Below, in pieces: positions 16,901-63,580 of a stretch of 64,000 nucleotides of DNA. The notes below the pieces were generated by a model. It was not told the origin of the DNA. It was given only the letters and a program-made list of their open reading frames with translations, and searched no databases. Within the stretch, counting starts at the first letter, position 1, and the number at the start of each line of letters is the position of its first letter. Position numbers and translations under genes: made by a program. This DNA comes from Gonapodya prolifera JEL478 (taxonomy: Eukaryota > Monoblepharomycota > Monoblepharidomycetes > Monoblepharidales > Gonapodyaceae). The DNA is taken from contig KQ965786.1 in assembly GCA_001574975.1 (NCBI GenBank), forward strand, positions 230,825 through 294,824, given 5' to 3'.

Positions 16901-19900
16901 TATCACCTTCTGCTATTTGCAGTACCTCCCACGAATGATTTACCAGAGAGTCCGCTTGTTTCCGCAGGAAGGACGTCATACCACCAATGTTGCCGGAACC
17001 AAATATAGTCCCCTTTGATCTACCGTCCCTTCTTCCATGCATGTTCTGGAGATTGGGACCATGTTGTTTCCGCAAAATGTCCTGCTCGAGTATCTGCGCC
17101 CTCCACTTCTGCTTCTGGATTATTAGCCATGCGCCATAACTTCGACCCATAGAAGCACCTCCACCAAAAGAATGAACAGATAAGGGTTCATCAGAGAGTA
17201 TAACGGCTTTCTCCCTCGGCGAAATGACTACACGGCTTTGCGGAGAGACCCCTTCAGATGATACTCCACGAAGATCTTCAGCGCTTTGGACATGTGACGC
17301 AGCATCGACATCCATCGTTGTTCCACCAATATCATGCAGGGAACGATCCGGTTGAGTCATTAACGCATTGGCGGACTTGGGTATGTAGTTGGTTATCCGG
17401 ATCTGCTTGAACGTTTCCTCTCGCTCCGCAACTCTTTTACCGAGCCAATCAGGGTGCTTCACTCTTGGCACTGGATTCGAAACTTTTTGCATTGCAGCGG
17501 GAATAGTTATCAATTTCTGAATCACAGATCCAAATCGCTCCAGATAATAGTTCCAATCAACAATGTTTCTGATATCAAAGTTTGAAAGAGCAGGATCTTT
17601 CAGCCATGCCCGAAGATGGTACTTCTTCACTGAAGATTCAGCTTGAAATATAGCAACAGGTATGGACCGTTCCGATACAGGGACCCCAGAAGGTTTCGAT
17701 GAAATTATGAACTTGCAGTTAAGCCCCTTATCCTTAACCATTTGATCTCCAAGAAACTCTGCGAGGCGTTTGGCAGTTGAAATAGACGTCGATTTTTGTG
17801 CACCATACTCTTCAAGAGACTTCGACATGCTCCTGTTCTCGGAAATCAGCTCGATCAACTCGTCATCTTCGAGGTCTGCTCCTTTGGAGTACCTTTAAAA
17901 AGAAAGCTCGGTTGGTAACCTTCAAAGTGACAAAAGCTTCCACATACAATATATCGAGCCATCGATTGGCTATTTCCGCAACAGCGCCGTAGCAGGTTTC
18001 AAGGGTGTCGCCTTTTAAGAACACCTGTAAATAAATTGCAGTCTCAATTTTTCGATTGAACAATGCCATGAAACACACACCTTGAAGATTTCACTCTGGA
18101 AAATCTTAATAATTTTAAGTTCCCCGCGGCGTTTCACTTCAAAACCCTTTAACTCTGCAAGTGAACCATCTTCATTGAACACAGCGTATCGCTAGAGAAA
18201 AGTAGAAAAGCAGTTGTTAGTCACATTCTTTTGAGGATCATAGCAGGTTGTACCTTCTTGAGGAGCTTATCCTCTTCTGTTGACGCCGGGAGAATCATGG
18301 CTTTGTACGGACCATCGACTTCAAAAAAGATCGAGTTCTCGGAATGCTTCTTGTACCGGTAAGTTTCCGCATCATCAAGATCCTGGTATTGGTGATTAGT
18401 GAACTTTTCGTGCACAAGGTGATTTAGCATTGCGCATGGATAAGAAACTGGAAGCGTTTTCCCTCCCTTGAACTTAAATGTATAGTTTTCGGGGAATGTT
18501 TGCGGAAGAATACACCAAATTCCGTCCGTATCAAGTTCAAGGGGACGTCCGACTCTCTCAACAAGTTGTCTCGCCATCTGAATGATTTTCGCTCCAGTCA
18601 AACAGACAATGCCAGCCATTTCCATTGAGAACCAACGTGACCCTTTTCTCATGACGTATCCATAAAACGAGTTCAGAATACACTAAAGCACATGGAAACC
18701 CGACAGGTCATCATTTCGAAAAAACCAGCTCGAATGATGTGATGCGATCGTACCTTGTGCGCAAGTTGCAGCGAGTCGTATAATACAACCATCTTTTTGC
18801 ACCGATCAATCTCGGATGCTATCCCGTTGTGCAAAGCATCGTCGAGCTTCTTCTTCCATTGTTTATGCTGGGCTTTGTACTCATAGCGACGATCTCGAAA
18901 GAGTCTCACAGTATCAACGTAGAATGGATTTTCTCTCTGGCAAACTGGGTTTATTGCACGTTGAGTTCTTTGCCTCGAAAGTGCATCTGGTCACAGCTTA
19001 CCAATAGCTTTGCTGGGAACTATCTTGTTTTCGTACTTTTTGTTGTAAACTTTGACGCTATAGTCACCAACACGCTTCTCCAAGGCCTTTGTCTGTTCGG
19101 AGTGTGAAAGTTCGTTCCAATTTCGCGAAGGGTCTGAGGGAAACCTCCCCTGAAAGCAGAGATGTGATGTAAGGATTCCGCAGTTCGAAAAAGCCATTCA
19201 CTGACACTCGCTTTAAACTTTTCATTTTCAAGCACACTCCGAAGCATGTTGACCTCATTTCGCTTTGCTGGGAAGAATTCCGCTCGCCGCGACCAGGTCA
19301 TCTCCCGTTGACAATCTGATTCAGGACAATTGAAATCGCATGTGGCGCAAGTTCGCTCATCGACCATTGAATCCGGCTGCAGTCGATTTGTTAACATTAT
19401 ATTCGGATCTAGAAAACGTGTTGGTATGATCGCAAGTTGCTTGACGGAAACAATTTCAGGCTGCATACACATAGCTGCAACATCCAAATGGTAGATTAGC
19501 GGACGTTCAGATCGTAAAGGGCGATCCCGCAAGTCTAAAAGTCGAGAGGCGATTGCCGATCGAACCTAAAAGTGTAACGTAAATAGCCAAACATTATCGT
19601 GTGCGACTTGAAACGTTCATACCTCATCATAGTTTTCCACATCTTGCACTTTTGATTTCCCCTCAACTTCAATGGTATGCTTCAGAGCGCCATCCAACTG
19701 ATCAAGCAACTGGAAAACAAAGGGACATTGATCATTTGAGAGTAACGACAAACAAGGTTGCAACTGACCCCTTGTACTGCTTCTGGTACAATTCTGAACT
19801 TTGTCGGAAGGTCACTTCGAAAAACCCCAGCTTCCAAAGCTTCAACATGACCCCCAACATATGTCTCAGAGAATACAAGATGACCCTCAAACGTTTTCCC

Positions 19901-22221
19901 ACGTTTTTCCACATATTTGTTTGGCATGAGAATGTTGTTTTCAAATGCCTGAACCTGCAGAAGCCGTGTTTCATTAAACTGGATCTGTAACTGCTGGTAT
20001 AATCATTCCCAAAAAGTTGGAGACTCACCATCAACAACATTTCACACATGGTTCCACTCCCTTTTCGGAGAACATCATCTGCACAACCAGGAATAACCGT
20101 GCAAAGAGAGAATACGAAAGGATTCACGTATTTCATGAACAAATAGTAAGTTGCAACTGCGTCGGAAACGGAGTACTGTGCAAGTGTTTGCGGTCTCTCA
20201 ATCGCAAATCTTTCAGAAAGAAAGAAAATAATTAATTGTGATAAGGTCGTAAAGAGACTGCACCTTCTTACCGAGTCATATCTTCGGGATCCAGCTCTAG
20301 AGGATTATAGCCCAGTTTGGCAGAAGTTACAGCCTGACGAGAGATGTTCAAGAGTTTGGAAAAAACTACTTTGGGAAGCAATTTACAATACCTTCAGGCC
20401 CTGTGAACCTTGTGGGAGGTACGAGTCACGCTTTACCCAAGCAAAGCAGTCCATGTGAATGCCATAAGAGCTTTGGTATATATCTCCACCTCCTGGGCTT
20501 GAGTCTTTCTTCCAACCAATCTCTTTGTACATGTCCATTCCACAAGCTCTGGCTCGGGCCTCAACGAAGGGGAAGTCAAAAAAGTCTCCGTTATATGTGG
20601 CTATGATTGATGGACGCGCAGAAAGAATATGAGCGAAGAAGCGCCGAAGAACAGACGCCTTAACATGGAGTGAGAATGAGATAATCCAAAGCATTCGTAA
20701 AATTTGATAACCAACCTCGTCGCTTTCGTTAAACACTGTAAAAGGACCCTCATACTCCGGCTTTGGGGTGTATTCGAAGTCCTCCACATCTTCACTGACA
20801 ACCTCTCGATTTGTGATGAGATAACCTTGCCCATCAACCATATAAGATATCATCATGATTGCGTCCAGTTGCTGGTCTGGGAACTTTAGAGGCTGCTTTG
20901 TAGTTTCAATGTCAAAAGCTAGAACAACTGGTTCCGCACGGTGAAGAAGATCCGATCGCCGACTGAGGGTGACAGAATGAGATGTTGCGTCAGCGGTGAC
21001 AGCAAACCAGTGGCCAACGCGGAAGCCTACAAAAGAAAAGGGTGAATAGAAGTCGAAAGAAGAGGATGGGTTGACATCACCATTGTCAATGGCTACCCGA
21101 ATGTAATAGGGAACATCGTATTCCCGAATATCATCGATCAAGTCAAGAGGGTCCTTCAAGCCTTTCGATTGCTGAAGCTCATCTTCATAACCTACAATAC
21201 TGCGAAGATATGGTCCCACATGATAGGTAGTATACGTCACAAGAAAACAGAGATACATACTTCCAATTGTTCTCGTACACCTCTGCAGCTTGCTTGCCTT
21301 CACGGTTTGCTTGAACCGTTTGAAGTAGCACTTTTCTAACGGAAAGAAGGTCTCGGACATTCCGAAAGGCCAACTTGACGACTGTACGCTTGGCCCCAAT
21401 TAAATGATTTGGCTGCCAAACAATGGGAATATGTACATAGCACCGCCATTCCGTCCTCGAGCTTATAAAAGACAAAAGCTCACCAAGTCGAGATCCTCCT
21501 TTTCTATCCGTTGAATCTGGTGTACTTGACGGTCAAACAATCGTCGTAAGTGTTCCTCCACCTCTGCAGCACATCCTTCCTAGCAAGTTAGTCTAGTCAG
21601 CCCCACCACAAGGCGTAACAATATTTAGTGAAAAGGACGACTCGCCTTTGGACAGACCAAGAAGTATGGTTCGTATTGGAGAGTGACCTTAAATCGCCCA
21701 CCATCATCTTCCAGGAAATATAGATCCACCGCGCTCTTCCCTCCGGGCCAGTCGGAGTTCCTCACGAGTGTCTACAGATGATGTGCTGTTATGTTCACCT
21801 GGTGGTCAATTGACGGGCTACAGCTTACCGGCCTCATATTAACTAACCACCCAATACGCTCTGGCCCTTCCTCATATCTCCAAAAGCCCATTTTCTCGTC
21901 AATTTCATCAACAAATAGCAGATCTTGTAACTCGTCATTTGGAGATGTGAATCCAGTAACCGTAGAGCTTGCATCCTTCAATTCTTTAAAGCCATCGAAC
22001 GCAGTGTCTGCGTCCAGATCAGCCCCGAAGTCCTCTAAATCGTCGCGCGATGCCGGCCCTGTCGGTCGGGATCCGAATCTACTTGTTGGCACGTTTCGAA
22101 GTTGCCCTCGATGACCAGAAGAGCCCCTCCCAACACTTCGAGGGGCGATATTCTCAGCATTTTCCCAGCGATCTCCTCGTGCTTTCCCTTTCGCTCCCCT
22201 CCCAGGGGGTATCCCGAACAT
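13965..22221 (-). CDS. POL2: DNA polymerase epsilon catalytic subunit A
   Basis: Leading-strand replicative B-family polymerase. The N-terminus begins [16 protein letters not shown] and leads to [19 protein letters not shown]. The 3'-5' exonuclease motifs are intact: FDIETTK (Exo I), [12 protein letters not shown] (Exo II) and [20 protein letters not shown] (Exo III). Polymerase motifs are [19 protein letters not shown] (A), [20 protein letters not shown] (B) and ELDTDGIW (C). The C-terminal inactive polymerase half ends in two Cys clusters (CGYCNLC/CKGC and CQKC/CSQC) that bind the second subunit Dpb2. The first exon is 22221-21829 and the second 21771-21646, followed by a GC-AG intron (21645-21580). 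Many short introns follow, then one 3.9 kb 3'-terminal exon covering most of the C-terminal half. The exonuclease residues suggest normal proofreading. I checked several but not all middle junctions. Confidence 0.95.
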
Positions 22222-26754: not shown

Positions 26755-29285
26755 ATGGAGCAACACCAGTCCTTTGATTGGGTTGAGCTGGCGGACCCTT
26801 CCACTAAAACTCCATTCTGGGCAAATGTTCGGACGGGCCAATGTATCTGGGTAGCACCGAATCCTCCGGAGAGAATGTGAGTGTGACTTCGAAGTCAAGT
26901 GCAGTCGATAATTTTGTGAACTCTCGCTCATTACCTCTTCTTCATCATCTGGCAGTCGAGTATCAAATCCTGATGATTTTTGGGAGCTGTGGGACTCGAG
27001 GCGATCACGCCCGTATTACTACAGTGTGAATTCCGGAAAGTCGGATTGGACGAGGCCAAAGGATGGTTGGTGTGGCGGCGCGCTCTTCATTTTGAGCGGT
27101 CTTAACTTGCCTCCAGAGCACTGCATACTTCCTCTTATTGCAATCCAACAGAGCTCATTGGGGGAGAGACTTTCCACTTCAATGGCACCAGAACAGGCAA
27201 TTCCCGTAAAGTCCAAAGAGAATTCTCCCCGTAACATTTTTCGACCAGCCCCCCTGCCTGGGTCCGAACCACCATTACCACCTCCGGCGTCCCCACGCCT
27301 TCCTGCAAAATTGGTGGACCGAGCGTCTTCGACCTCATCAAGGTTCACACGAAATGGCACGACAACTACTACCTCATCAGATGCTCATCATTTAAACACA
27401 GATGGAGGCAATGGATTGCATGGGACTTTGAGTGTTGAAGTCTCTTCCCAAATGCCTTCTCCCAAGTCTCCAAGACGGCCTGGTAACTTGGATAACTTAG
27501 CCGTCCCGAAGACAGTAGAGCCTTTATTACTGCCAGTTTCCCCAGCATCCCCGAGGCCCAAAGGTAGTCAAGACAATCTGCTGGTGCCATACAAGAGAGA
27601 TGCCGACATTGCTGCGAAGGCCAGAGCTGGCGGAATTGGCGCACCGGTGCTGAACGAATGTGAGCTGCAAGGTTTCCCCCAATCTCTCTGTAGCGCTTAA
27701 CCCTTTGTGCGAAACTTAAGCCGCAGCAAAGCTCCTGAACCCTCTCAATCAAAGATCGCCATCTCAGCTTTCGTCTGCCTCCGACAAACCACATTCATAC
27801 CGCTCGTTGCCACAGGATTTGTCTCGCGACATAACCCAATTCCGGATTGAGGGCTTTGCGAAACAGTACTTTTCCGAACATCGAAAGGGTTTATTGCGGA
27901 GACGTGTCCCTCCAGAGAAGATGCTTGAGTGGTCCAAAGATACAATGAAGTCTCCACTTCTTATTCTGAACAAGAGCGTTCACAAAGATGCAATGAAATC
28001 GTTCAAATCAGTACAGCAAGTCATGGGAGATCGTGGGGGGAAACCCCTGGATGCTGCAGCTACGGTAGAAGAAATGCAGCGACTCTTAGAAATGGGGATA
28101 AACAAGGGTGTCTTGCGAGACGAAATTTTGGTACAAGTATGCAAGCAGCTCACGCGTAATCCACATAAAGAATCAGAGTACAAGGGCTGGGAACTTATGG
28201 GCGTTTTGCTCATTGGATTTCCTCCCTCGAAGAATTTCGAACATTATCTGGAGTCATTCATTGCAGCTGGGACTCGAAGCGAAGAACCTAGGATATCAGC
28301 TCTCGCGTTCAATTGCCAGAAGAAGCTTGTTCGAATAGGAAAATCGGGGCCTCGTGGAAAGGTTCCTGCAGCAGCAGAAGTGGAAAGAGCAAGAGTACGT
28401 TTTTTACGACGTTATCCTCAGACTTACCTCAAAATACTGGTTTAGGTTGCAGCGTACTCGCCGTCTGTTTTCGGTGAAACTCTGGAGGAGGTCATGACCA
28501 TCCAGGCAAAAGATTTTCCGGAGGACGAGATCCCCCGAGTTATGGTGTTTCTTGCACGAGCAGTGCTAAAACTTGGAGGCTGCAAAACGGAGGGCATTTT
28601 CCGAGTGCCTGGTGACGCAGATTCGGTCGCCGAACTCAAGTGTCGAATCGAAAATCGAAATTGTAAGTTAGAGGGGGAATGAGCACAGTTACCGTTGTTT
28701 TCGTTTTTATCAACATTATCCATGAAGATGATGTTTCTGGTATTTTTGGTGAGATACCTTCGACTACACTTCCCTCAAACGTTATGTTTAATCCAATCGC
28801 TAGACCCTTCCGTTCCCGCCTCTCTTCTGAAGCTTTGGATGAGGGAACTTGCAGATCCTATCATACCAGTGGAACTCTATGATCAATGCATAGGCGTGGG
28901 TCGGAAGGAGATGGAAAAACGAAATGAAGCGACAGAAAACGCTTGGGACATTGTAAAACAACTTCCGCCTCTTAGTCGTGCAGTCGCGAACTACATGGTT
29001 CAATTCCTGAGAGTGAGTGGGGTAGTTTTCTGCGCGTTCATAGATCCCCAAGAAAGAATCGTCGCTCAGATCGTCGCTGACCCCGAGCACCAAAAAATCA
29101 CCAAAATGACTCTCAACAATCTCGCAATGGTGTTCGCCCCAAACTTCTTACGTTGTCCCTCCGACAACCCTACACTTATATTCGAAAACACGAAATTCGA
29201 ACAATCATTCTTGAAACTGCTGATAATGTCGGGAGGCGACGATGATTACGCCCACCTGGCAGAAACACATCAGATTGCAATGTAA
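26755..29285 (+). CDS. WW-WW-MyTH4-RhoGAP protein (ARHGAP39/Vilse-like)
   Basis: Predicted GTPase-activating protein for Rho-family GTPases. The 701-residue spliced protein has two N-terminal WW-type modules (WVELADPSTKTPFWANVRTG, and DDFWELWDSRRSRPYYYSVN ending SDWTRP) and a long Ser/Pro-rich linker. A MyTH4 domain follows (SKDTMKSPLLILNKSVHKDA, LRDEILVQVCKQLTRNPHKE, GWELMGVLLIGFPPSKNFEH). A RhoGAP domain ends the protein, with the arginine-finger region GGCKTEGIFRVPGDADSV and the core KMTLNNLAMVFAPNFLR. Exons: 26755-26876, 26956-27065, 27117-27659, 27727-28394, 28446-28662, 28728-28748 (21 nt), 28804-29012, 29070-29285, summing to 702 codons. The architecture matches animal ARHGAP39/Vilse; the substrate GTPase cannot be inferred. 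Confidence 0.9.
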
Positions 29286-35926: not shown

Positions 35927-38900
35927 ATGTCGTTTTTGAACCGATTTCTCCTCCCTCAACTAGCAAAGTCGGACCAATCGCCTGTTGACGTAGCTCTTGA
36001 CCGTAATCGGTCGGCATCACCCGTCTCCTCCTCGGTACCATCTATAACAGTCACGGTCGACGAACAGAGTGAGGACGAGGATGGCGGCGAAGATACTGGT
36101 GCCAGCAATCGTGCGATTGCTACGAGTAAGAACCTCCTTTCGCCTTCTGGACATCAGCGGAAGGGAGGATCGAACTGGACAATGTCCACCACAACGCGTA
36201 TTGCGAAGAAAAGCAAGAGCTGGAGCTATCTCTCAGCGACATCGTTCATTGATCTCACGGCGACCTCTGCGAGGATGGGAGGTTCCAATGGTTTTATCGT
36301 CGATCTAAAGAAATTAAACTCACTCCACCGGGCGACATATGAGGGTGATGCCGAACGAATTCTGGGAATGCTTATCAAGGGAAAGAAGGATGTCAACAAA
36401 CTTGACAGATTCCACCTATGCACTGCTACAGCAATCGCTGCGACGATGGGAAGCATGGTAAATAACTTCTAGGACCCAGGTATCATTTACTTCTACTAGT
36501 GACCTTTCCCTTTCAGGCAGCGCTCGAAGTGCTTTTGGCCAAACGTCCGAACATCAATTTGGTTGATTCGGCTGGGCGAACGCCACTCATTTTGGCATCA
36601 ATCGAAGGGCACCACGCGGTTGTGAAACTTCTCATGTGAAACTGTGTTCTTCACCAGATTATTCGAGTGATAGTTAATGGTTTTCTTGATACAGAAAGCA
36701 TGGAGCTAATCTCAACGTTGCAGATCATCTTGGTGCAACAGCACTTCACTACTCGATTTTGGGGAACTCCCAGGCAGTGTTGAGGTCCCTGCTCGAAGCC
36801 TGTGCTGATTTCTCGGTTGTTGACAAGGCAAGTATCGAAGGATCGGGGTAGCGGCGATGGTATCTAAGTGAGGCCGGGTTCCTACAGAGTGGCAACACGT
36901 TGTTGCATCATGCAGTCCGGCTCGATCAGATCGAAAGCGCAGCTCAATTGATCAACCAAGGCCATGCAGTCGACGTTCTTGACCCTATGGGAAAGTAAGT
37001 GTGTCGTCTGCGTTTCGTGTTCACGTGCGCGTGTGGAACGCATATTGTTTTGTCAGAACTCCGTTACACCTTGCGGTCGAAATCGACTCGGTGAGAAGAC
37101 CCGAATGTTTTCTCTGCAAGAATTTCAACGCCAGATATTTTGTGCCACCAGGAGCCACTAGTTTGCCTCCTGCTTCGAAGTAATGCAGCTCCCACATTAT
37201 CGGATGCAACTGGCAAGACACCTCTAGAGTATGCTCGGCGATCAGTCGTGTTAGATGTGTTAACACAGAGCTTGAGTGAGTACTGTATTAATCCATCTTG
37301 TCAAGTGTACTGTGAAACTGGCAACCGTTTCGCCAGTAACGCAAGAATCTGTTGCCCAAATGACATCCGCCAATACGTCGGGGTTCTTGCCACATGTTCA
37401 TCGCCAATCGAATCCCGAGGTTTCACGACGGCCATCGGTAACGTTGCCCAACCCTCTAACGTTATCTAATACCACGGGAAAATCACAGTCGGAATCACAT
37501 ATCGAAGGCTCGATTTCTTCCAGTAGTCTTCCTGCCGATTCCAGTCGCCAAATTCCTCCATCAAGGATCTCGGCTCCTTACGACCCGTCGTCTTTTTCGC
37601 CGGTCGCTAGTGTGTCGGCTGGTAATACGGATTTCAATGAAGCCATCACGCGGGGACGGTTTGGTGGCAGCCTTTCGGCCATTGGAACTTCACTTAATGG
37701 TAGGACAGCTCCAAGTCTTCCTTGGACGCAAGGTAGCAATGTCGGTGAACCAGCTCTGATAGGAGCTGCTCGTGCAATCACTTCAAGCAGCCCCTCTGGA
37801 ATTTTGGATAACAAAAGTCATGTTGGTTTACTTCTAAATGGGAGGCCATACGGCATCTTATGAGCATTAACCCGTCCAGATATTAATTCCTAAGCCTCCA
37901 TCCACACTGAATCTCTCCACGGTGGCTCGTTCGCCCATCATCCTTAGTCGGCATAAGCATGCAAGATCATACTCGACTGATCAGCCATCAAACCCGCAGG
38001 GAACTTATACGCAAGATTGTGACAAACCTCCCCAAACAACTGAAAGCATCCAACTCAGTCAGCAATTAAATGAGGAGCTTAGGCAGTTGGACAAGGCAAA
38101 CATAACAAACCCAGTTATCCACCAGGTTTGAGTCATACACTCTAGCAGAATCGTACGGCTTGCTTGTTTAAACTAATCACCAACGTAGGAACCCTCACAT
38201 ACACCCGAGTCACAGACCCCTACCTGTGATACGTCATCCCCTACCACAGTGTTGAATTTGGTGAGCGCTGCTCCACGATCGTCGGAGCATCTTCCCACCA
38301 CAGTTTTGGATGATCTCGAAGAGCCTTGTCAGCTCAAAAGCCCGGGTGAATTCCGACATGTGGGAAGTGAAAAGGTTACCAAACGTCGTTGGTCTTCACT
38401 GTCAGTGCTTTACAATGGGGGCGAATCGAAGCAATCGTCTCCCAGCGACCCTCGCTGGGCTTCCCAAACACTCGGTGGAAAGGGCGGGAAATTCGATGCA
38501 GGCAATGTTCTGCCCGAGTTCCATCCAACTGCGAACGGCTCTCGTGACATTGTTGGCTCGGAAGTCTTCAGTCCCATGATCACACGAGTGCCTCTTAAAG
38601 GCTCCAGCGAGAAATCCCCTCCAGATTCAGATACACTTCCGTCAACGTCAAAACGGGCGGTTGCCGATAGTACCTTCATCGGCTCTTCGGTTGATCAGCT
38701 ATCTGAGAAAGATCAACTCTTGAGGTATAAAGAAGCGTATTCGGCCCAATTCGCGGAGCTCACGACGACCATTTCACAATTGTTGGATGATGTTGGGGTA
38801 TCGCGCCAAGAGTGGCTATCTCTTGGCTCTTCTCCAACAGATCCGTTGTGTTGTGATGGTTCCGTGGATATCCCCGGGTTTCTGAGGATGAAGAATTCAA

Positions 38901-41282
38901 TTCATCGACTCAAGGAACATTTTATAGCAATGAGAGAAGAGCGAGATTCTGTCGTTGCTGCTTTGAAAGATCGAGAGCAGCAGATTGAAAATGTGCATGC
39001 TAGCTATCGCGAAATTTTGATTAGCGCCGAATCAGAAAGACACGCACTCATTGCAGAGTATGAATCGCGCTTGAAACATGCTCTTGAAGAATCGCAAATG
39101 AAATCCGACGAACTCACAAGCAAAACGGTGGAATACCAGGACACGTTGGAACAATTGAAAGACCAAGCTACCCACTTCCAGTCAGCACTCTCAGATCTTA
39201 GAGCTGAAGTCGCAGATCGAACATCGCACGTTATGGTGTTGGAAGGAACTTTGACCAATGAAGGAAGAAGACTGGCTGCTGCAGAACTCCGAAGAGTTCA
39301 TCTCGAAGACCAGATTGTTGCGCTTACTGCTGAGCTTCGTGATGCGCAGAAAATTGCGAGTGAAACAGCCGCCAGTAATCACGAAATGAAAACCCACATT
39401 GCTTCACTGAAAGCGATGAATGCAGATCTTCAAAATCGTCTCAGGGAAAAGGACACGACCACCGAACGAGCACGCCTCCTAACCGTCGACATGGAAGCAC
39501 GCCATCATACAAAAATTTTAGAATTAATGGCTCATGTTGAAGCTAAAGATCACATGCTGGCATCAATGGATGATCGGATTGAAGATCTGAGACGTCAATT
39601 AATAAGAGCGTCCGTTGATCGAGGTGAAATAATTCAACCTCAATCAATTCGTGCGCCACTTCAATCAGATACAAGCTCTGAGGTTATAAAGGTGAGAGTT
39701 ATTGTACCGTGCGCCAGGTTCCAATCCTTTTAACATTAGATGACCCAAATACAAGCAATATTCTTACGATCTGGACCAGCTTCGTTCACAGTTGGCGGCT
39801 CAAAGGGCTTCTCTTTTTGAAAAAGAAAACCAGCACAGGGAAGACATTTCTTCGCTTGAATCCGAGATCTTCGGGTTGCGTCAAGACCGAGAAAATCTCC
39901 AACATAATGTCAACGAGTTATGTGTCTCTCTTCAAGAAGCTAAAATGGAAGCCGTATTGAAGGCATCACAACTCGATGAAACTAAGTCAACACTGGTTGG
40001 TGCTCTGACCGAACTTGAGAAGTCTTCCGTCACCGTTAAAGGGCATCAGATCAAAGTCCTTGAACTGAATGAGAGCCTTAAAGAAGTGCAAAACAAACAT
40101 GAAATTTTATTACAGCAATCCGAAGTCACCAAGTCTACCCTTGTCAAAAGTGTTGGGGAACTTAACAATGCTCTCTGTCTTCAGACTGCGGAAATGAACG
40201 AGCTCAGGGATAAATTGACGGAAGCTCATGACATCTCTGATGCATGGTCAAGAAAATATCAATTCTGTGAGGCCGACGTCGTCCAGCTTTCGAAGCAAGT
40301 GGAAACGTTCAAAGAAGCGCTCTCACTGGAACGTGAGAAAAGAGATAGCGTACAACTTGAATTGAACCGGCTGGGACTTCACACGTCCAATCTTGAGCGC
40401 CAGCTGGCACTCAATGGTGATGAGCTCTCATCGCAGCTAGGCTCTGCTCGAAAAGAATTGGAGCGTCTTGGTTTCATCGAGGTGAAATCGATGGAGCTTG
40501 CTCGACAACTCGAGGAAATTCATTTTCGGGATGCAGAGTTGAGGAAACAGTATGAGACAATGGAAAAATATGATAACGAGGTGCTCCTTTTGATTCAAGA
40601 TTGCAGTAATCTTTTTAATTCGATGATCCCGACAAAGAGTTCTAGACCAGTGACATCTGTGGACCTTTGGTACACGTCTGCGATTGCCAGTCCAGGAGCA
40701 ATGACGTTGACACCAGTTCAACTTTTCAGAGCTGCGGATTTTGGCGAACAGATTGGACATTTAGGAAATTGCCTACTGAACCTTCGTCACATGTTACAAA
40801 TAGCACCAGAAGAAGAATCTCTTGATAAATTATTGGAGGGAATGAAGCGACGGGTAAATGTCATGCCGGATGAGAAGCCTCTATACAAAGGTCTCCGCGG
40901 TCTTATGGTTGCAGTGACGTCAGCAACACAGCAAAAAGTTGTTCAAATTGATCGAGAAACGAGGCAAGCAATAGATATCCTCTCGAATCTAGATGCTGCC
41001 GTCAGAAAACTGCTCGAACAAGCGGATTCGACAGCTAGACTTGAGCAGTCATCTGACCTTATGGAGAAGAAAGCTTTATTGGAGAAAAACAATCTTCTTG
41101 CGGATCTCATAGGATTACTAAAGACAGATGTTAACAAGCATGTGTCGATAATAAAGCGACAAGAAGGAAGAATCCGAACATTGGAGGATAGCAGGCTTCG
41201 AATGCTGGATATGATTGCTAAGCTTCGGAAAGCCAGCGTGCCAATTCAAATGCAGGAACATTTAATGGGTGAGGATGACTGA
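35927..41282 (+). CDS. large ankyrin-repeat plus coiled-coil protein of unknown function
   Basis: The 1602-residue protein has a basic/Ser-rich N-terminus (about 1-130). About six ankyrin repeats follow (about 135-350), for example SAGRTPLILASIEGHHAVVK, KHGANLNVADHLGATALHYS, DKSGNTLLHHAVRLDQ and TGKTPLEYARRS. A disordered Ser/Pro-rich stretch covers about 360-750, and a very long coiled coil (about 760 to the end, e.g. ENVHASYREILISAESERHA) completes it. Exons: 35927-36457, 36517-36635, 36695-36827, 36888-36994, 37057-37090, 37152-37275, 37337-37821, 37880-38125, 38189-39691, 39756-41282, summing to 1603 codons. Intron 3 is GC-AG. The layout recalls animal ANKRD26/UACA-type proteins, but this is architectural resemblance, not demonstrated orthology. 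It may be a cytoskeletal or centrosome/basal-body scaffold. It converges tail-to-tail with CTF4. Confidence 0.85.
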
Positions 41283-51600: not shown

Positions 51601-54161
51601 ATGACGACAGACTCGCCCGCGCCGCAACCCGCGCCCGCACGCACCGTTGTGCTCGACGCCGGCCCGCTCCTCAGGCTGCCGTCGTCTGCACTCGCGGCGC
51701 TGGACGCTCGCCTAGTCACAACCCCCGACGTGCTCGCAGAGGTCAGAGACAAGAGGGCTAAGCAGAGTCTTGCCGCGCTGGCAGTCGATGTCCTCACACG
51801 GAATCCGTCAGAGGAGGCGTTCGATGCAGGTGCGTCTCGCTGTTCTCCCTCTCTCCTTGCAATCTCGCCCCGGTTTCAACTCCCATCAAACACCCCCCTC
51901 CTTCTCCAGTAACTTCCTTCGCAAAGAAAACCGGCGACTTCTCAGTCCTCTCAGTCACTGACTTGAAGGTCCTCGCCCTCACATGGATGCTCGAAAAGGA
52001 AGCCCGTGGGTCCGCTCACCTCAGACTCGCTCCCAGACCCCCCACAGTCGTCGTGCCCGGCGCCGATTCCAACGGGACAGTGCAAAAGGAGTCAGTGCAG
52101 GGGTCAGTAGAGGCGCCAGCGGTAGTAGAGGAAGAACACAAGGAGGAGCAAGGTCGGAAGGAAGGGGAGGAGGTCATTGCCAGACAGTCAGACTCGGACT
52201 CTGACTCTGAAGATGACGACGAGAATGAGGACGAGGAGGGCGAGGGCGAGGGTGAGGAGGGTGGGGGTGAGGGTGAGGGCGAAGAGCAGAGACAGAATGG
52301 GGAGACGAAGGAGACAGAGGCCCAAGACGAAGACGTCAACACCACCAAGGACCAACCAGACTCCCAGCCGATCCCAGCGCCCGTCGATTCCCGACCCGCT
52401 GATGCCTCTTCTCCTGCGGCTCCCTCTACCTCCCACGCTCCTTCCACCACCCCTGCTCCCTCCACCTCCACCTCACATCCCGCTCCATCCGCATCCACAT
52501 CCACCCTCACCACCAACCCCGCACAACCAGCCACCGCCGACAACGACGACGAAGGGTGGATCACTCCCGCAAACGTCCACCTGCACAAGGCCAAGGCCGC
52601 GCACAAGGGCAAGGCGCAGGACGAGGTGTGGAGTGTCGGGTGCATGACGGGCGATTTCGCAATGCAGGTGCGTGACGCGAGCGCAGCGAGCCCGAAGCCT
52701 AAGCGCCGCTAGGCGCTGACCGAGGAGTCCGCCGGAGGCGAGTGATCTGCGTGAAGCGAGAATGATGCAGCGCGGAGCGGATAATTGGGTTGGTCGGGGG
52801 TTGGTTGGGNGACACGAGGACTTGAGATGGGGAGACTACCTGCGGGAGTCTCAATGGGCACATGTGCAGGGCTTGGATATTGAGACAAGGAGTCGTGTGG
52901 AATGGAGAGACTTGAGGAGGCGGATCTCGGTGGGAGCTCAAGACATAGCAACCGCACCACGCTCCTCTCCATCAAACCGCTGCACGCTCCCACTCACGAT
53001 CGCTCCCCCTCCCCCACGCTCACAGAACGTCCTCCTCCAAATGAACCTCCGCCTGCTCTCCCTGGACGGCATGCTCATCAAGAAGGTCAAGACGTACGTG
53101 TTGAGGTGTCATGGGTGTTTCAAGTGAGTTTTTTATTGGGCGGGTGGTTGGTGGCTTGGCTCGGGGATGGGGATGGGTGGTGGAGGAGTGGGCGCCATGG
53201 GTATTGTTTCAGGACGGTGGGGAACGGCGACAGAGATGTGAGGCAGGAGAGTGGGTGAAGGGTAGCGTAGAGTAGAAGGATGGGCTGGGAGCACAAGGTG
53301 GTGTGTGGTACGTGGATGCGAAGTGTCAAAGTGGAACATGGAATGTAGAGCTGGCACGAAACTTCGCGGGCTCACCGGCACCGTCATGGTCTGAAATCGG
53401 ATCCCTGCACGCGACTCTGTCTCTGTCGGGAGCCACGACCGTCGATTCTCCGTCCTCACCGCGACTGACACAACAACCCTCCCCCCCGCGCAGAATCACA
53501 ACGGACATGTCCAAGAAGTTCTGCCCCTCGTGCGGAGGAAACACGCTCATGCGCGTCTCGGCGCGCGTTGATGCGGACGGCGGGATCAGGGTGTTTTTGA
53601 AGAAGAACTTCCAGTATAATTTGAGGGGGTCTAAGGTTCGTTGGGGCCAGGGGTGGAGTGGGTGGGAGTTGAAATGTTTAGGGATTTGGGCAAGCCAGAG
53701 TGAGGAAAGGGGGACTGGAGAGAAGGGGTCGGCGTTGCTTTGCGGATCATTTTAATCGAACTGCCATCTCACACACTCGACACTCTCCCCCTATCCGCAC
53801 CGCTGTATCCTCCCCCACCCCGATCCACGCTCGCCGTACCGCACCCACACCTTACGCACAGTACAACGTTCCCCCGCCCCAATTCGGTCGCAAAGCGCAG
53901 AACCTGATTCGGGCCGAAGACCAGCCCGAGTACGTCAAGGCGCTCAAGACGCAAGAGTGGGCGGTACGCAAGGACTTGCAAACGCGCGCGCACTTTTTCG
54001 ACCCGGACTGGGCTCCCGACATGCTCGTCCAGGACGACGCCGACCGTCGGCGGGCGCTCAAGTCGGCCCGACAGAGAGGAGTTGCGGGACCTGTTGTAGG
54101 GTATGGAAAGAAGAACCCCAATGAGGCCCGTAGGGGGGGTGGAGGGAAGAAGAAGAGATGA
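51601..54161 (+). CDS. NOB1: 20S pre-rRNA endonuclease NOB1 (PIN domain and zinc ribbon)
   Basis: Cleaves the 3' end of 18S rRNA at site D during final 40S maturation. The 508-residue protein opens with a PIN domain (TVVLDAGPLLRLPSS with the catalytic Asp, VTTPDVLAEVRDKRAKQSL, VLSVTDLKVLALTWMLE). A long low-complexity insert follows: polyacidic Glu/Asp/Gly, then Pro/Ser/Thr-rich. The sequence returns with DDEGWITPANVHLHKAKA and VGCMTGDFAMQNVLLQMNLR. The zinc ribbon has CHGCFK and CPSCGG, followed by QYNLRGSKYNVPPPQFGRK and a Gly/Lys-rich end. Exons: 51601-51829, 51910-52667, 53026-53123, 53494-53635, 53862-54161, totalling 509 codons. Intron 2 contains the single N at 52810. Confidence 0.94.
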
Positions 54162-54234: not shown

Positions 54235-57200
54235 ATGGATTTGAGTTACGAATTGGTATCATTGAACATGGAGGCCACAGCCGATCTTCCACCATTCATG
54301 GAGCTTCAACTGGAGCGACCCAAGGCGAAGAAAAAGACCAAAAGCAAACCCAAAGTGGAGCGCGTCGTATCGGATACGCGGGAGGAGGCGTCCCAGCGAG
54401 TGGGCGAGAGTCCACGTGACCAACCGGCTCAACCTACCGCGGCGATCGACGCCCCAAAGCAGGTCACGGAGGTAGAGGCAGTGGGCGTGGATGATGCGAG
54501 CTTAGTGCAGTTGCTGGAGCAGGCGAGGGAGGAGGTGGACGATGTCCGGCTTTCGGAGCTTACGCACATCGTGGGGGACAGGGACACGCAAGACGAAGTG
54601 AGTGTTGTTTTTCACCGGGTAGAGGCCCAAGGGCTGTTTTCTGAACTTTCTGGGGGTTCTGCAGGTTCACTACCCTTCCGCGCCGACACTTGACGAACTA
54701 GATGATGCATTCCTCACAGACTTCACGGGTGATCCTGCCCAGCAGTACCCGGAGCTGTACTCCACCGTCGTTTTCGAGCGTGAGCACCTGTACCCCGTCG
54801 CTGCGGACGATCAGTACCACGCCGTGTTGTCGGACGTGGTGGAGCCCTCCGCACCCCCCCTGGACATGTCGGTGACGGACACATTACCCTGTGAGCCCAT
54901 CACGTCGGTGCCGCTTTCGGAACTACACGCGCACTATGACCTTACGCAGCGGTCTTCTTGGCTGCGCACGCGGATGGAGGAGATTGCGACAGGTCACGCC
55001 GATTTGGAGATGACGCCGTTTTTCGCGTTGGTGTTACAGTATCGTACCGCGACCGAGGCGTTACAGACGGCGCGTCTGCGCGCGCAGGCGGTGATTGTTG
55101 AGTCAAGAAACCTGGCTGGGCGGGCTTGGCGCGTGGTGCGGGAGACCAAGGTCGAGAAGGGGTTGTGCAAGGACGGGCGGGAGTGTTCGATCAAGTACCA
55201 GAACACGCGGGCAGAGCTGGACGAAGATGTGGTTGCGAAGCTTGAGGCAACGCTGGCGGACTTGCGGGAGGTGGCGTACGGGGAGGTGGCGAAGCAGACA
55301 TTCGAGACCAAGCTGGCAAAGTTGAGAATTCAGGAGGAGATAAACCAGACACTGGTGTCTTATGCGGAGCTGCAAAAATATCAAGCACAGTCTCAGAAGT
55401 CCGATACTGCTGCCGAGCAGGCATCTCGATCGAATGCTCCTGCCGTGGCCCTGATGGAATCCTCTGGGGTCGGAGCCATTTTACCCATGCTGGCGGTACT
55501 GTTCCACTTCGCACGAACACCTGACCACAACCAAGTCTCTCTTCTACCAAAGATGTCGCTTCCCTCCACGGGGACTTCTGCTTCGTCTTTACCCTCCTCT
55601 CCTTTCATGCGGGATATACGTGGCTGGACGTGCCACCTCGTCAACGCGACATTGAGGCTCAACCAAGGAGCTACAAGTCAATATCTACTTTGGGAAGTCT
55701 TGAGGACACCGGGAATTGGTGATTGGTGAGGAATTGGTGACTTGAGAGGTGCATTCGGGATTGTTAACATGACAACCGCCACTGCAGGGGGGCATGGTTT
55801 CTTCAATTCTCCCCACCATCCATACTCTCAGACGGATGGATTGACAACTACCTGACTTCTCTATGGTGCATGATGAAAGACGCTTTAAATTCCAAGGAAG
55901 TTGAATCAGCGGAACGGCAACAGGAGCCTGTGGACGACGACGAACTTGAATGGGTAGTGATACAGGACACTGAACTCTCTGAGATCCGAAGACCGCAGGG
56001 TGGTGTCTTGTGAGTGTGGTTACTTATTCGACCTCCAATCGTGGGACATTCAAATAATGATTTCTTAATACTAAGATGGGACTCCGACTATGCCGTACTC
56101 CTCGATCAATTCTCCCCTCCTCATGTAATGTACACTGTTGGGAGCCAGCTCTTGTCCTCCTATTCGCTAGAGAAGAACGGCAACTTCAAGTTGGGGTTCG
56201 CAATCATGACAAAATTTTTTGCCGTCGCAGAAGCGGTCGTCAAGGCTCTTTCTTCGGCGTTGGATGGTGCTTTGGCGAAAAGGACAGATTTAAAAATGAT
56301 TGTCAAGCGTGCGGCACAGGATGCGGTTCATGTCGTCAACCTTGTTGCCCACCTTTTGGCGCAGCATCAAACCATGGACGATACATTCTATCCAAACACA
56401 CTCTCCGCCGTGACAACGTGTCGGAACGAAATCGACGCGCTTGCAATCCGGACACTCTGTCGTCTCCATGGATGTTGGGTGCCTGGGGTTTGGCAGGTGT
56501 CCAGTGACATCAACTTTAAGTTTCTATCTGTGGATGCTCTTTGGAAGTGTGCACTAGAGACTGTAGCAGGCCGCTCTGGTGATTCCTCAGCTTTAACAAA
56601 TGGTGAAACGGCACTTACAATATCGTTTGATTGGAAAGAAGTGAAAGGAGAACCGCTGAAGCGCCTTAAACGTTGTAATCCGGAGAGCTTGGTTTATATG
56701 ATGAATTTTTGGGGTTCTATAGCGTCAGAGGCGGTCGCAAGGTTACAAACGGCTCACCATGACTGGACGGAACAGAGGAAAGCCAGAAACGTGTTGCAAC
56801 TGGCACTGTATCTGTTGTGGAAAGCGAGGTAACTAGAACTTTCTCAGGAAAAGCACTGCATGACCGGCTCACGTAACTTGCTATGATCGCACAGCTTTCG
56901 TGATGAGGATTCACAAGAGCACCTTTCCAGAAATGGGAAGGATATTTTGAGTTCAGTTGTTTCTAGATCACCCCAATTGATTTCACTGCTAGTTTCGTGG
57001 ACAGCAGAGCAGGCCTCCGAAGTTACTTGGGAAACTGTAAAATACTTGTTCCAAGGACTGCCACTAAAGAGATGGCACCCTGATGAAAGAGATCTTGATG
57101 TTTTCCACGACCTCATATTACAGGACGAAAGCTCTGCGAAATTCGTATTACATGTCATGGACAAGATGGAGTGGGGATCGGTTACCGTGAATGATGGCAG

Positions 57201-60200
57201 TGGTTGGAGGCAAGTCTTGATTGGTTCAACATACCTATCTTGATTTATGATAGCATGTCACTCCATGCAGCAAAACGCGACTATTTTTACCGCAGGCAAC
57301 ACATTATAGAGTTGCGGTGTCGCTCTTGCAATTTGCTCAACGATATCTTGGGGGACAAGTATCGAAGGGTGGACCGAGTGACGATTCAAACGTTTCTCAG
57401 CAGATTTGGAACATTCTAGAGCAGCTCGAATTGATCGGTGTGCCTTCTTCACCTGCCTACTCACTTGAATTGTCACCATTTAATGATATGAAAATTGTCA
57501 ACGATCAATTCATCTCAAGGCTGGATCCAATGGTTTTATTTGTTGAATTAGCATCGCCCGTTGTATCTAAGGATTGGCTGATGTTCACTGAAAGAGGGTG
57601 GTCCTGGCTGCAGAGATTGCAAGAAATTGCTCCACCCAAGGCATTTGTCAGAGCAACAGATGTCGTCGCAGCTCTTGCCTTCAGTCATGGTCCACAGGTT
57701 TTTGATGATGAGGGCTTCAAGCAGGTGTGACGAAGTTGTTTTCTTTTGTTGACCCACATTTGACACTGTGCGCGTCCAGCTGTTTGTCGGTGTTTTCGCT
57801 TCGCCAAAGTCATACGTGCAGCTAGCTTCGCAAGTTGTTGAAACAACATTGCGAAGCAGACAGTTGGTCAGCCCAATTCCAGCGGCTGCAAGGATCCATT
57901 TGTCAAGATTTTTGCATACCCCTCGCACATTGAACGAATACTTTCCCCTGTCACTGCACTTGTGGCTACGAGCTGTACTGCTGAACAGTGATTGGATATA
58001 CAACATAGAGGCTGTTCAAACCGTTGATCTCTTATTTCATGTGGCTGCAGTAACGTTGAGGTCATGGGCATCAATCACGCCAATGCTTGTGGAAGTCTGT
58101 CAGAAGTTGCTTATTCATAAGGCAGATGACTCCATACTTAGACGAATGGCAAGCCGTCTTCCAACGTCTTACATGCCCAAGGGAGATGCAATCAGTGCAT
58201 TTGCACTATCGGCGTATCAGACAGGAACAATTGTTGGGCATTGTCCACAGACGTGGTCTGACGTACCTCAGATATGGTTGGGACTGCCTGGTATCAACGT
58301 CAACTATTTTTGGTTTGCTGTAGCAGGGCTTCAAGCAGAAGCAATTGCAGAGACTGCGTTAAGGAAGACAATAGGTGCCTTGTTGCTCCAGAATGGAACA
58401 GAATCTGTTGAAGATATATTCCGACAGCTAAAATTGCCACCTAAGCCACTTCAATACTTTTCAATCATTCGTATTGCTGAGCATATCATCGCCTCCTCGC
58501 CAAACAGCACTCAGCTTCCGTTGCTTTGGGATATGTTCTTACATCTTTATTTTGAGAGACTGGATGATCTCAATTTGGATATGGCTCAATGTTTTGGATA
58601 TCGATTTATAAACACTCCAACAAACGCAGGTTTGATGCAAAAACTTTTCGAACGATTAAATGAGGCAACAGAGCTTTCAGACAAGTCAAATTTATCTACT
58701 ATTCAAAATATGGGAGGCTACTATCGCAGCGTCTTCTTGTGGCTCTCTAACAAGGGCTTAGTAACTGGGAAAGAGTACATAGGCAATCTCGGCCCCGAGT
58801 ATTCTTTCGCTGGCCACATTCAGACTGTTTTGTGCACGTCAATTTCGAGTCTGCAGTCACCGTGGTTCTCTGTAATTGAAGCATCGAGTGGAAACAACGG
58901 TCCACAACGTGAGGAGCAGCATGAAGCCGCGACAGTTTACAAATCTTCACATCAGGAGAGTTCAATGCCAGAGTCAAACGCACAGCAAAGCCCCGACTTG
59001 CTTTTGGGGACACCAATTGTAAAAAGCGCAAATGTCCAGGTGCATTCGGAGCTCTCTTACCTTGTTGACAAGGCAATGGAGTTTGAGAAAATGCGGGACC
59101 GACAATGTGGAGCTGATGCAAACTATGTCGAAATGTTGCGCATTCTTTATAAGCCACATCAGACTGCTAGTAATGGCAAAGCCGATTGCCGTTTCTTACT
59201 CCGGACATCATGTGCTGGTGCCGCAGAAATATGCTATCTGCAAGTGACTGCAGCCATTGTCGATGATGTTAAAAATAGCATGGAGGACAACAGAAGCAAA
59301 TCGGAGATGAACATTTTTGTGGACAACATGAGCCTTCCCGTCGTTGCGTCATTGTTGCGCTGCCTAAAGGGATTAAATACTGATATCAGTATACTTAATC
59401 CTTCAGTCGCAATGCAATCATCCGGGGACCTGTTTATGACACTTGTCAACGCAGTCAACGTTAAACTCAGGAAATATCCTCCATTGAGAGTGCTTTTCGA
59501 TCAAGCTCTTCCCAGTCTTGCAAAAAAATTCCTAACTGATGGCAGTCAAATTATGCCCAAGATATTCAACGCGCTGATCCAACAGACTGATGATGAGGAA
59601 AAGTTCAGCAATCTTCTGGCGTCGTTTCATCCAACTCTGGTACCACTTGAGTTTGTTTCAATGTTTAGCCGAGTACTTCAAACGTCGCACATGGACCATT
59701 CTCGTTGTGGTTTGATTCTTCTGAGGTTCAATGTTAATGAATGGCTTCACCTCATACCAGAGCCATCCGGAGAGCTACGGCTTTCACTACTCAAGGTCAT
59801 ATCAAGCTTTTTGACCAATATCGAACCTTCCTTGGACAAAACCCCAAACGATGTGTTGAGAAACAATTGCCGTTCTATCTTAGAACATGCAGTGTCGAGG
59901 GATGATGACATAAAATGTATTCGATACGCACTTGAGCATCGCCAGAGTGTGTTACTGGAAGGGCTATGTGATGTACTGGAGGGTACAGAATCTGGACCTC
60001 AGATGCAGCGATCGTATATGTTTTTCAAAGCAATTATTCAAGATGTTGCGTCTGTTTTCGCAATAGCCCAAGCATCAGCACAGACGCTAGCATTACATGA
60101 TCAATTTGGTGGTGTCTTGAGCCATATAAGTAAAATTCTCATTCTTGCGTTCACAGCCCTAAAGCGGCAATACCCCGCAAAAGAGACGTGGCTGCTTTTG

Positions 60201-61943
60201 ACATGGGTTTATACACCATGGCTTGTTGCCCAATCGTCTTTGTCTCCTGCGATTATACCAAAAGCTGCGTGGACTCCGCAAAACTCTGACAGTGTCAAAA
60301 CATTTTTGGAGGTATTTGGGAAGGTTGCGAAATGCCTTTCAGATGACGACACTGCAGTAATGGAGACATTATGGGAGTTTTATGCACGTGTTGTGAGGTC
60401 TCAAGCTCCTGATTTTGTGCTGGATATTTTTCATGGAGTTCTGATTTCAAGCCACTTTTCCTGGGAATGTGTTGTCTCGACGAAATTTTTTAGCATGACT
60501 CTCCTTGATATGATGACTAATGGAAGTTTGAAAGCAACATCTGAGTACTTTGTGGCAAGAATCCTGGTGGAAGCGAGGCTACTTCCTGGTAGTGAATACA
60601 ACTTACCCTCTTTGAAAATTATTGCAATGCTGTTCCAGAACTTCAATTCTACGACTCCTAAGAATGAAGAACTTTTTAGGACCTATGAGAAGCTGGAAAA
60701 TATTGTGGACAATAACATGAGAAACATAAGCCGTGAGGAGCTTTCTGAAGTGTTCTCCATTTTCAAAACTTCTTGGGAGGAACCAGTCACTTCCATTACG
60801 AATCCTTCAGAACTGTGTTCGTTAGCGCTCTCACTGAGGTTTCTTATCAAGCTTTGTAATGCTGGTGATGATTATTCACCGGGGCTTGCAAACTATGCGC
60901 AGTTCTGTGTCATGCTCCTAGCTGCACAAGTTGCAGATTTCTACAACCCTGTTCCACGAGTTCGTAATTTTCAAAATGATTCAATTAGCGTGGTTACACA
61001 GGAAATTTTCAGGATGCTGGATAACGAATTGGCCAATGCCTCTGTCGACAATTACAAAACCTCATCTTTGTCTAAAGAAGCGTGGGAATGCTTTCAACAG
61101 TTGCTGTCTATTTTGAATAAAGTTGTTCCAGGGGAAATGCATGAAAGTATTTTGGACGGTCTTCTTAAAGGAATTTCTGTCTGTCAGCAACCATTAGCTG
61201 TTCTCCAACGATGCTGTGATACTTTGGCATCTTTTGAAGTACTCACGACAATGACTGAACATGCAATTATCCGTGCACGTGTCCGTGGGGTAACATGGGA
61301 CTCCATTTCAGAGCACTTTTTTGTTCCTAGTATATCATCAGACAGTTATTTTGCTGTCTGCACTAAGAGGTACTGCCCACTGACGCTGTACTGCTCTACT
61401 TTGAAGGGCATTGCATTGTGTCATTCAATATCAGAGGAGTTGATTTGGGACGCAAGGATAAGAAGCTGGATAGTTGAATTGAAACCTGAGGCAGGCAGGG
61501 AACTTCATGTTGCAGAGCTTGTGAGGCATTTTGCAAAGAGACTGTCAGATATAAGAATAGTACAAGGAACACCTTCCTGTGATCTTCAACTTGTTGGTGC
61601 TGCTCTTTTAAATTGGGGGCAAGACAAAGACCATTCTGGCTTTCTGGGATCAATTGGAATGGGCTCAAAGTCGCCCTTTCAAGTTGAATTTCGTCTTTTC
61701 TGCAAAATCATTGGGACATTCCTGATCACAACTGGCACATCAGTTGAAGGTGTTGATGGGGTAATGAAGTCTACCAAAATGATTGGGGCACTTGGTGCTC
61801 TGCCACATCAGCATGCAGATTATTCTCATCACAAAGATACCATCCTGCATAGTGTTGCATTTATGGAAAACAGGCAGAAGGGGGTACCTGATATGGTGGA
61901 CCTTGTGAACTACTTAGTATTGAATTTACCACTGATACTGTGA
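54235..61943 (+). CDS. EPG5-like autophagy tether (very large helical protein)
   Basis: EPG5 in animals is a Rab7 effector that tethers autophagosomes to late endosomes/lysosomes. The model here is 2436 residues, close to the roughly 2,580 of human EPG5. Support is family-like order: a Lys-rich start (ERPKAKKKTKSKPK), a YPELYSTVVFEREHLYPVA segment, a conserved helical block with AWRVVRETKVEKG and ELDEDVVAKLEATLADLREV, an acidic ELEWVVIQDTELSE hinge, then long helical-repeat sequence. Exons: 54235-54597, 54665-55725, 55788-56009, 56076-56828, 56895-57213, 57296-57724, 57780-61943, summing to 2437 codons. The acceptor at 57296 is chosen over an in-frame alternative near 57252. The last exon is 4.16 kb. 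The call rests on recognition of weakly conserved sequence; another giant scaffold is possible. Confidence 0.65.
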
Positions 61944-63398
61944 TAGAAGTTTTGCTTTTTGATACCCAATAGGACCTTGTTTTTGTAGATATAAGTACAA
62001 ATTTAAAGTTAGTGCCTGTCACCACCCAATGGAGATTATTAATGAATATTGATTTGAATCACTGACTTGGTTTGAGATTGTGTGGCTCAGACCATTAACT
62101 CCATGATGCCAGAGAATTATACATTTGTTAGGCAGTGATGCCAAACACAGATGCTGACGGCAGGTGGACTGAGGCAGTCGTAGCAAATGATGTACTAGGT
62201 ACTAAAGCAAATAACACATTGCTGTAGAAACTCACCTGAGGCAGTGGTAGCAAATGATTTCTTCCTGCCCCTAGTTGACAAAAACGCTGCCAAGTGCAAA
62301 TGTGCATGGACCACATGACTGCGGCAACACAAATTGGTGTGATAAAATTTGCCATATCTGTTATATAATTCAGTGCAATTTTTAAGATTACAATAAATTT
62401 AGGTGTGGCAGGGCACTGATGAGAAAAACATCAGTGACAGCACATGCCAGTAGGTTGTCTAGTAACAGTTTGAGGTCTATTGCAGACCAAATAAATGTGT
62501 AATCCACCCCCAGTACAAATTACCTGGCACAACATTCTGTAGAACACATTGCTGCTTCACAGTACCTGGAAGCAGGTACTCTAGCAGAACTTTGCATATT
62601 CAACACAAAGGGTAGCCAACTGTGGAAATGTGTATTGCTTGAGCTGGCCACATCTCACACATTGATGTTGGGTTGCTGTTGAAGTTCTTTGGCAGGTGAA
62701 TGATCTAATACCTCAGGTTCTTGGACAATGGCTCTTTGAACTCAACAAGACCTATGTTTGAAACCACTGTGCACAGATGGTTTGTGGTGATGCCTGGCAT
62801 GGATGCTTGGGCATGAAGGCAAAGCAATGATTTCTAAAAGACAACTGCACAACATAAGATTCCACCAAAGCAGATGCACAAAGAGATTTACACACTGAAT
62901 TGGTTAAAAAAGATCACTGAGTACCTCTGCCTACTGGCCACAGCTACCTGAATCACACATTATGATTCTCTTTTGTTCCTGCAGGGCTGGCATCTCTTGG
63001 TTGTCCCTGCCTCAGAAGTGGGCCCAATAATAGCACCCCCAAGTGATCCATGGATTTTCCAGCTGAGGAAAGGGTGACACATGGTGACACATACCCAAGT
63101 AAGCTAGGTTACCACCCAAAAAATGGTAGCACAGAGCAACATGCAAACCAACTGTTGGTTCAAAGGTGTAAAATTTCTTCATGTTCTTTGCAATATCCAT
63201 ATTGTATTTATTCAATATTTTATCTATACCCATACTTGGCAGGAATTGTTTCAGATCTTTTGAAAAATTATGTGGCAAGCTGTCTTGAGGGCACAATGAA
63301 AAATTGGAATTCGACCCCTGAGGCCACTGTTTACTATTTTTAATCATGGTTTTTGTCACCATAGCTTCAAGTGACATCCATTGACATGGTATATATAG
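61944..63398. other. intergenic repeat-rich sequence, no gene seen
   Basis: No coding gene is recognised. A short direct duplication occurs at 62169-62191 and 62236-62258 (CTGAGGCAGT-C/G-GTAGCAAATGAT). The minus-strand open frame at 63012-63497 matches no family I know and has no supporting context. Confidence 0.45.
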
Positions 63399-63580
63399 TG
63401 TTAGGTGCTGCGCCACTACTGTGGTCACGAGATTAGATGTGTGCACCTGCAGGACGTGCCCTAAGTTTGGCGTCACGATCCTGCAGGTGAGTTCCATGTA
63501 TAAACCAACTCATCATGTACTTCTAATGATATAAGCACGATCCTGCAGTTTACAAGCTCGTGCAGCTCAGCTGGGTTGTG
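63399..63580 (+). repeat. dispersed hairpin repeat, copy B (inverted relative to copy A)
   Basis: Reverse-complement match to 8806-9020. The shared parts are GCCACTACTGTGG, the hairpin arms (left 63444-63458, CACCTGCAGGACGTG; right 63474-63489, CACGATCCTGCAGGTG), the loop GCCCTAAGTTTGGCGT, and the distal block CGATCCTGCAGTTTACAAGC through GCTCGTGCAGCTCA and GGTTGTGTAGCA. Arm sequences differ slightly between copies but the hairpin is kept in both. Confidence 0.75.

Follow-up and report, generated by a model that had tools for sequence, protein, structure and literature searches.

The window analysed here, the whole 64,000-nucleotide stretch of DNA, carries a gene that, on grounds of homology and of analogy with the animal protein, very likely encodes an EPG5 ortholog of a zoosporic fungus, which would act as a tether between Atg8-coated autophagosomes and either the vacuole or the late endosome. 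The gene is present in single copy, its product is collinear with human EPG5 and carries a LIR (LC3/Atg8-interacting) motif at the position of human LIR1, and both Atg8 and ATG101 are encoded in the same genome. The EPG5 family is known; what is new is a fungal member, in a kingdom from which the family has been said to be absent, a 2021 paper placing EPG5 among metazoan-specific factors (PMC7935953). Among the papers covered by full-text searches, none reports EPG5 in fungi. Uncurated database annotations may already include fungal EPG5 homologs.

Collinear similarity to human EPG5

BLASTP aligns residues 219–1742 of the spliced fungal protein with residues 267–1806 of human EPG5 at 162 bits (E 4e-43), and a second segment (E 3e-8; residues 2195–2435, human 2306–2568) extends the collinear match to the C-terminus; phmmer returns E 2e-43 for the same pair. 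It is this collinear similarity over the two segments that carries the identification as EPG5, which is confirmed at the level of protein sequence; the EPG5 identity put forward in the earlier note is supported across most of the protein. The two proteins are of similar size, share a central block (containing LPLLWDMFLHLYFER) and a C-terminal block (containing SGFLGSIGMGSKSP; Table 1), and have in common the position of LIR1. They differ in that identity is low, at ~20% across the longer BLAST segment and 23% when a global alignment is forced, in that the W567 LIR of the human protein is not kept, and in the fungal host. The first ~210 residues of the fungal protein are unalignable, and neither they nor residues ~1745–2190 show significant similarity to human EPG5 on their own.

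The match is also seen with no splicing assumed: five exon ORFs, each taken by itself, align to human EPG5 in collinear order. In the reverse direction, a phmmer search of all 453 window ORFs of at least 60 codons with human EPG5 (E 0.01) passes only ORFs of the EPG5-like gene, and a search of the entire 47.6-Mb assembly with human EPG5 yields five collinear matches, none of them outside this gene.

The low identity, together with the capacity of helical repeats to yield spurious similarity, could be taken to indicate a different giant helical-repeat protein (another tether, a nucleoporin or a HEAT-repeat family) that resembles EPG5 by composition only. The score without composition correction is, however, 182 bits, whereas the best of 200 composition-preserving shuffles (made locally, inside 20-residue blocks) yields 31 bits, and reversing the protein yields 22 bits. 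Collinearity holds from residue 214 to the C-terminus and takes in non-repetitive motifs such as SGFLGSIGMGSKSP, and no other family was matched in Pfam or the PDB. By score, collinearity and the lack of a rival match, a compositional look-alike is refuted for practical purposes, and we accord it next to no probability.

Neither Pfam nor NCBIfam returned a meaningful match for the exons or for the whole protein, and a sequence search of the PDB gave chance matches only; no competing family was offered by any of the three. This silence is uninformative on the EPG5 assignment, because pieces of human EPG5 itself likewise found no EPG5 entry (two pieces against Pfam yielded no EPG5 model, and one against the PDB no EPG5 chain). 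As the libraries seemingly hold no EPG5 model, the comparison was made directly with human EPG5. The outcomes named beforehand as counting against the assignment, namely that EPG5 would not be matched at all or that some other giant helical family would fit better, are both absent: human EPG5 was matched, and Pfam and the PDB gave no rival. No relatives were found among viral and prokaryotic contigs, as is expected for a eukaryotic gene.

The human EPG5 reference is not a database download but a written-out sequence that was authenticated against published data. All 49 published residue/position pairs that were checked, drawn from PMC4766378, PMC12577676 and PMC7935953 and spanning Q46 to R2483, agree with it, against a chance expectation of 2.9. 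The checked motifs WTLV, WILL and FIKI lie at positions 550, 567 and 794, respectively, and its length of 2579 residues equals the published length (construct 1770–2579 in PMC7935953).

Gene model

The gene lies on the forward strand, from an ATG at 54235 to the end of the stop codon at 61943, in agreement with the location first given for it. It comprises seven exons and six introns of 55–67 nt, of which five are GT-AG and one, with the donor GCAAGT at 57210 after exon 5, is GC-AG (Table 1). The spliced product is in frame, has no internal stops and is 2443 residues long, a size that fits the EPG5 range of ~1600–2600 residues in one chain. The earlier note had given 2436 residues; the seven missing from that figure probably lie at intron 5, where the GC donor makes the exon join easy to miss. 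Judged from the large last exon, exon 7, the gene is single copy in the assembly. The lysine-rich start that was also cited as an EPG5 trait is present (KAKKKTKSKPK, residues 30–40), but its evidential weight is weak, because the first ~210 residues align poorly with human EPG5.

Table 1. Features of the EPG5-like gene, in window coordinates, with the evidence for each.
Feature	Position	Strand	Evidence
Exon 1; start codon, Lys-rich N-terminus	54235..54597	+	open frame, GTGAGT donor
Exon 2; helical region near the N-terminus, alignment with human EPG5 267–493	54665..55725	+	gene model; ORF alone BLASTP E 9e-10 vs human EPG5
Exon 3; has the LIR motif	55788..56009	+	gene model; alignment
Candidate LC3/Atg8-interacting motif W530-V-V-I, after DDDELE	55951..55962	+	column of human LIR1 W550-T-L-V; pairwise MAFFT and BLASTP, same register
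Exon 4	56076..56828	+	gene model; ORF alone E 1e-4 vs human EPG5 610–722
Exon 5; GC donor (GCAAGT) at end	56895..57209	+	gene model; ORF alone E 4e-10 vs human EPG5 806–902
Exon 6	57271..57724	+	gene model; ORF alone E 0.001 vs human EPG5 909–990
Exon 7; 1387 codons + stop, helical body and C-terminus	57780..61943	+	gene model; ORF alone E 5e-20 (human 1233–1806), 2e-8 (human 2306–2568)
Best conserved central block, QLKLPPKP...LPLLWDMFLHLYFER...GYRFINTPTNAGLMQKLFERL, residues 1273–1355	58428..58676	+	33% identity to human EPG5 1231–1363 in assembly search
C-terminal conserved block SGFLGSIGMGSKSPFQVEFR, residues 2342–2361; human SGILGAIGFGRKSPLSNRFR	61635..61694	+	BLASTP and MAFFT alignments

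A NOB1-like rRNA-processing nuclease gene (51762–54161, forward strand), called from a PIN_6 match and, by eye, from the Zn-ribbon FCPSCGG at its C-terminus, precedes the EPG5 start on the same strand, with 73 bp between them. Downstream, on the opposite strand, lies a 165-codon stop-to-stop frame (63012–63509).

LIR motif and proposed tethering function

Human EPG5 binds GABARAP through two LIR motifs, the dominant W550-T-L-V and W567-I-L-L (PMC7935953). The first of these has its counterpart in the fungal protein, where the position of human LIR1 is conserved as a predicted motif. No other W-type LIR in the 2443 residues has three acidic residues directly upstream, as the W530 motif does, and since strict LIR candidates number only three over that length, the likelihood that one is placed by chance within five columns of human LIR1 is ~1%. 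At the place aligned by MAFFT to the second human LIR there is no W-x-x-L/I/V, whilst Y554-A-V-L close by is a weak candidate for it; we do not hold the second LIR to be family-defining, because its mapping was done on human EPG5.

Rab7 recruits animal EPG5 to late endosomes and lysosomes; EPG5 also binds autophagosomal LC3/GABARAP and lends stability to the STX17-SNAP29-VAMP7/8 complex (PMC7935953). Atg8-autophagosome tethering is the most likely function of the fungal protein, given its homology and the retained LIR1. By analogy with the animal work (PMC7935953), it would form a long, mostly helical rod with the 'shepherd's staff' shape ascribed to EPG5, in which the LIR at residue 530 would bind lipidated Atg8 on autophagosomes and other parts would hold the vacuole or late endosome, a contact made in animals via Rab7; the protein may then promote SNARE pairing, leading to fusion of the autophagosome with the right compartment.

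Alternatively, the gene could encode a true EPG5 homolog that is no longer an autophagosome tether and acts in general late-endosome/vacuole traffic, its LIR-like motif being incidental. Of the two human LIRs just one is retained, and a single-sequence, exon-wise search of the assembly, which is weak and cannot show absence, did not find STX17; the sole match to the STX17 query is a syntaxin whose readable frame looks Sso1-type and has no STX17 glycine-zipper hairpin. Yeasts, moreover, achieve autophagosome fusion without EPG5. Against this reading, the best W-type LIR of the whole protein sits exactly on human LIR1, a coincidence with the low chance probability given above, and we consider loss of the tethering role unlikely. 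On the preferred reading, an Atg8-autophagosome tether, metazoan-type tethering would survive in zoosporic fungi, as the earlier note suggested.

Two other tethers may be set beside the fungal protein. C. elegans EPG-5 (1599 aa; PMC7935953), compared here by description, is the founding family member and a proposed Rab7/LGG-1 tether, but is much shorter. The HOPS complex (Vps39/Vps41) resembles EPG5 in function, since it tethers at the late endosome/vacuole together with Rab7 and SNAREs; it is, however, multi-subunit and present in yeast, no sequence match to it was found here, and it belongs to a separate family from fungal EPG5.

Host genome and evolutionary setting

The assembly contains several Chitin_synth_1 loci, at least 63 Zn2Cys6 matches and the flagellar marker IFT57, and so derives from a fungus with a flagellar gene, consistent with a chytrid-like zoosporic fungus. 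To our knowledge ATG101, found here together with Atg8, is absent from budding yeast.

As EPG5 has been described as metazoan-specific (PMC7935953), its presence here might reflect horizontal transfer from an animal, or animal contamination as the source of the contig. The contig, however, also has ordinary eukaryotic genes, among them DNA polymerase epsilon and the NOB1-like gene; fungal chitin synthases and Zn2Cys6 clusters occur in the assembly; and an identity of ~23% to human EPG5 indicates deep divergence. Given this gene content, these fungal markers and this divergence, we judge transfer and contamination alike to be very improbable.

We know of no EPG5 counterpart in the yeast model. 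With a homolog now identified in a fungus, the ancestral opisthokont probably had EPG5, which would then have been lost in budding and fission yeasts. A full-length fungal EPG5 with its LIR in place would date the tether to before the animal-fungal split, and the lack of EPG5 in yeast would thereby become a loss. More tentatively, EPG5 tethering itself could be an ancestral opisthokont or still older trait that was lost in yeasts and that works in flagellated fungi through Atg8 in place of LC3/GABARAP, without STX17 and with another SNARE set; this fuller scenario is possible, though we would not favour it. EPG5 is the human Vici syndrome gene, and the fungal protein provides a relative for asking which residues of the disease protein are ancient.

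Several further loci were noted. Two VTT-domain genes (Tvp38/TMEM41B/VMP1 superfamily) are present in the assembly (L004, G000 C74:54819; L005, C1:836893), neither of which was identified as VMP1. Within the window, the catalytic subunit of DNA polymerase epsilon occupies several exons at 13968–21399 on the reverse strand, and is nearer to the human protein than to yeast POL2 (805 vs 542 bits). Long coiled-coil ORFs at 38189–41279 (forward strand) give an ATG16 match of 22 bits, below the cut-off, which is probably mere coiled-coil similarity. At 26912–28442 (forward strand), adjoining frames encode a clear MyTH4 domain and a possible WW domain, the latter below the Pfam cut-off; RhoGAP-type proteins of animals and amoebozoans are known to pair WW with MyTH4.
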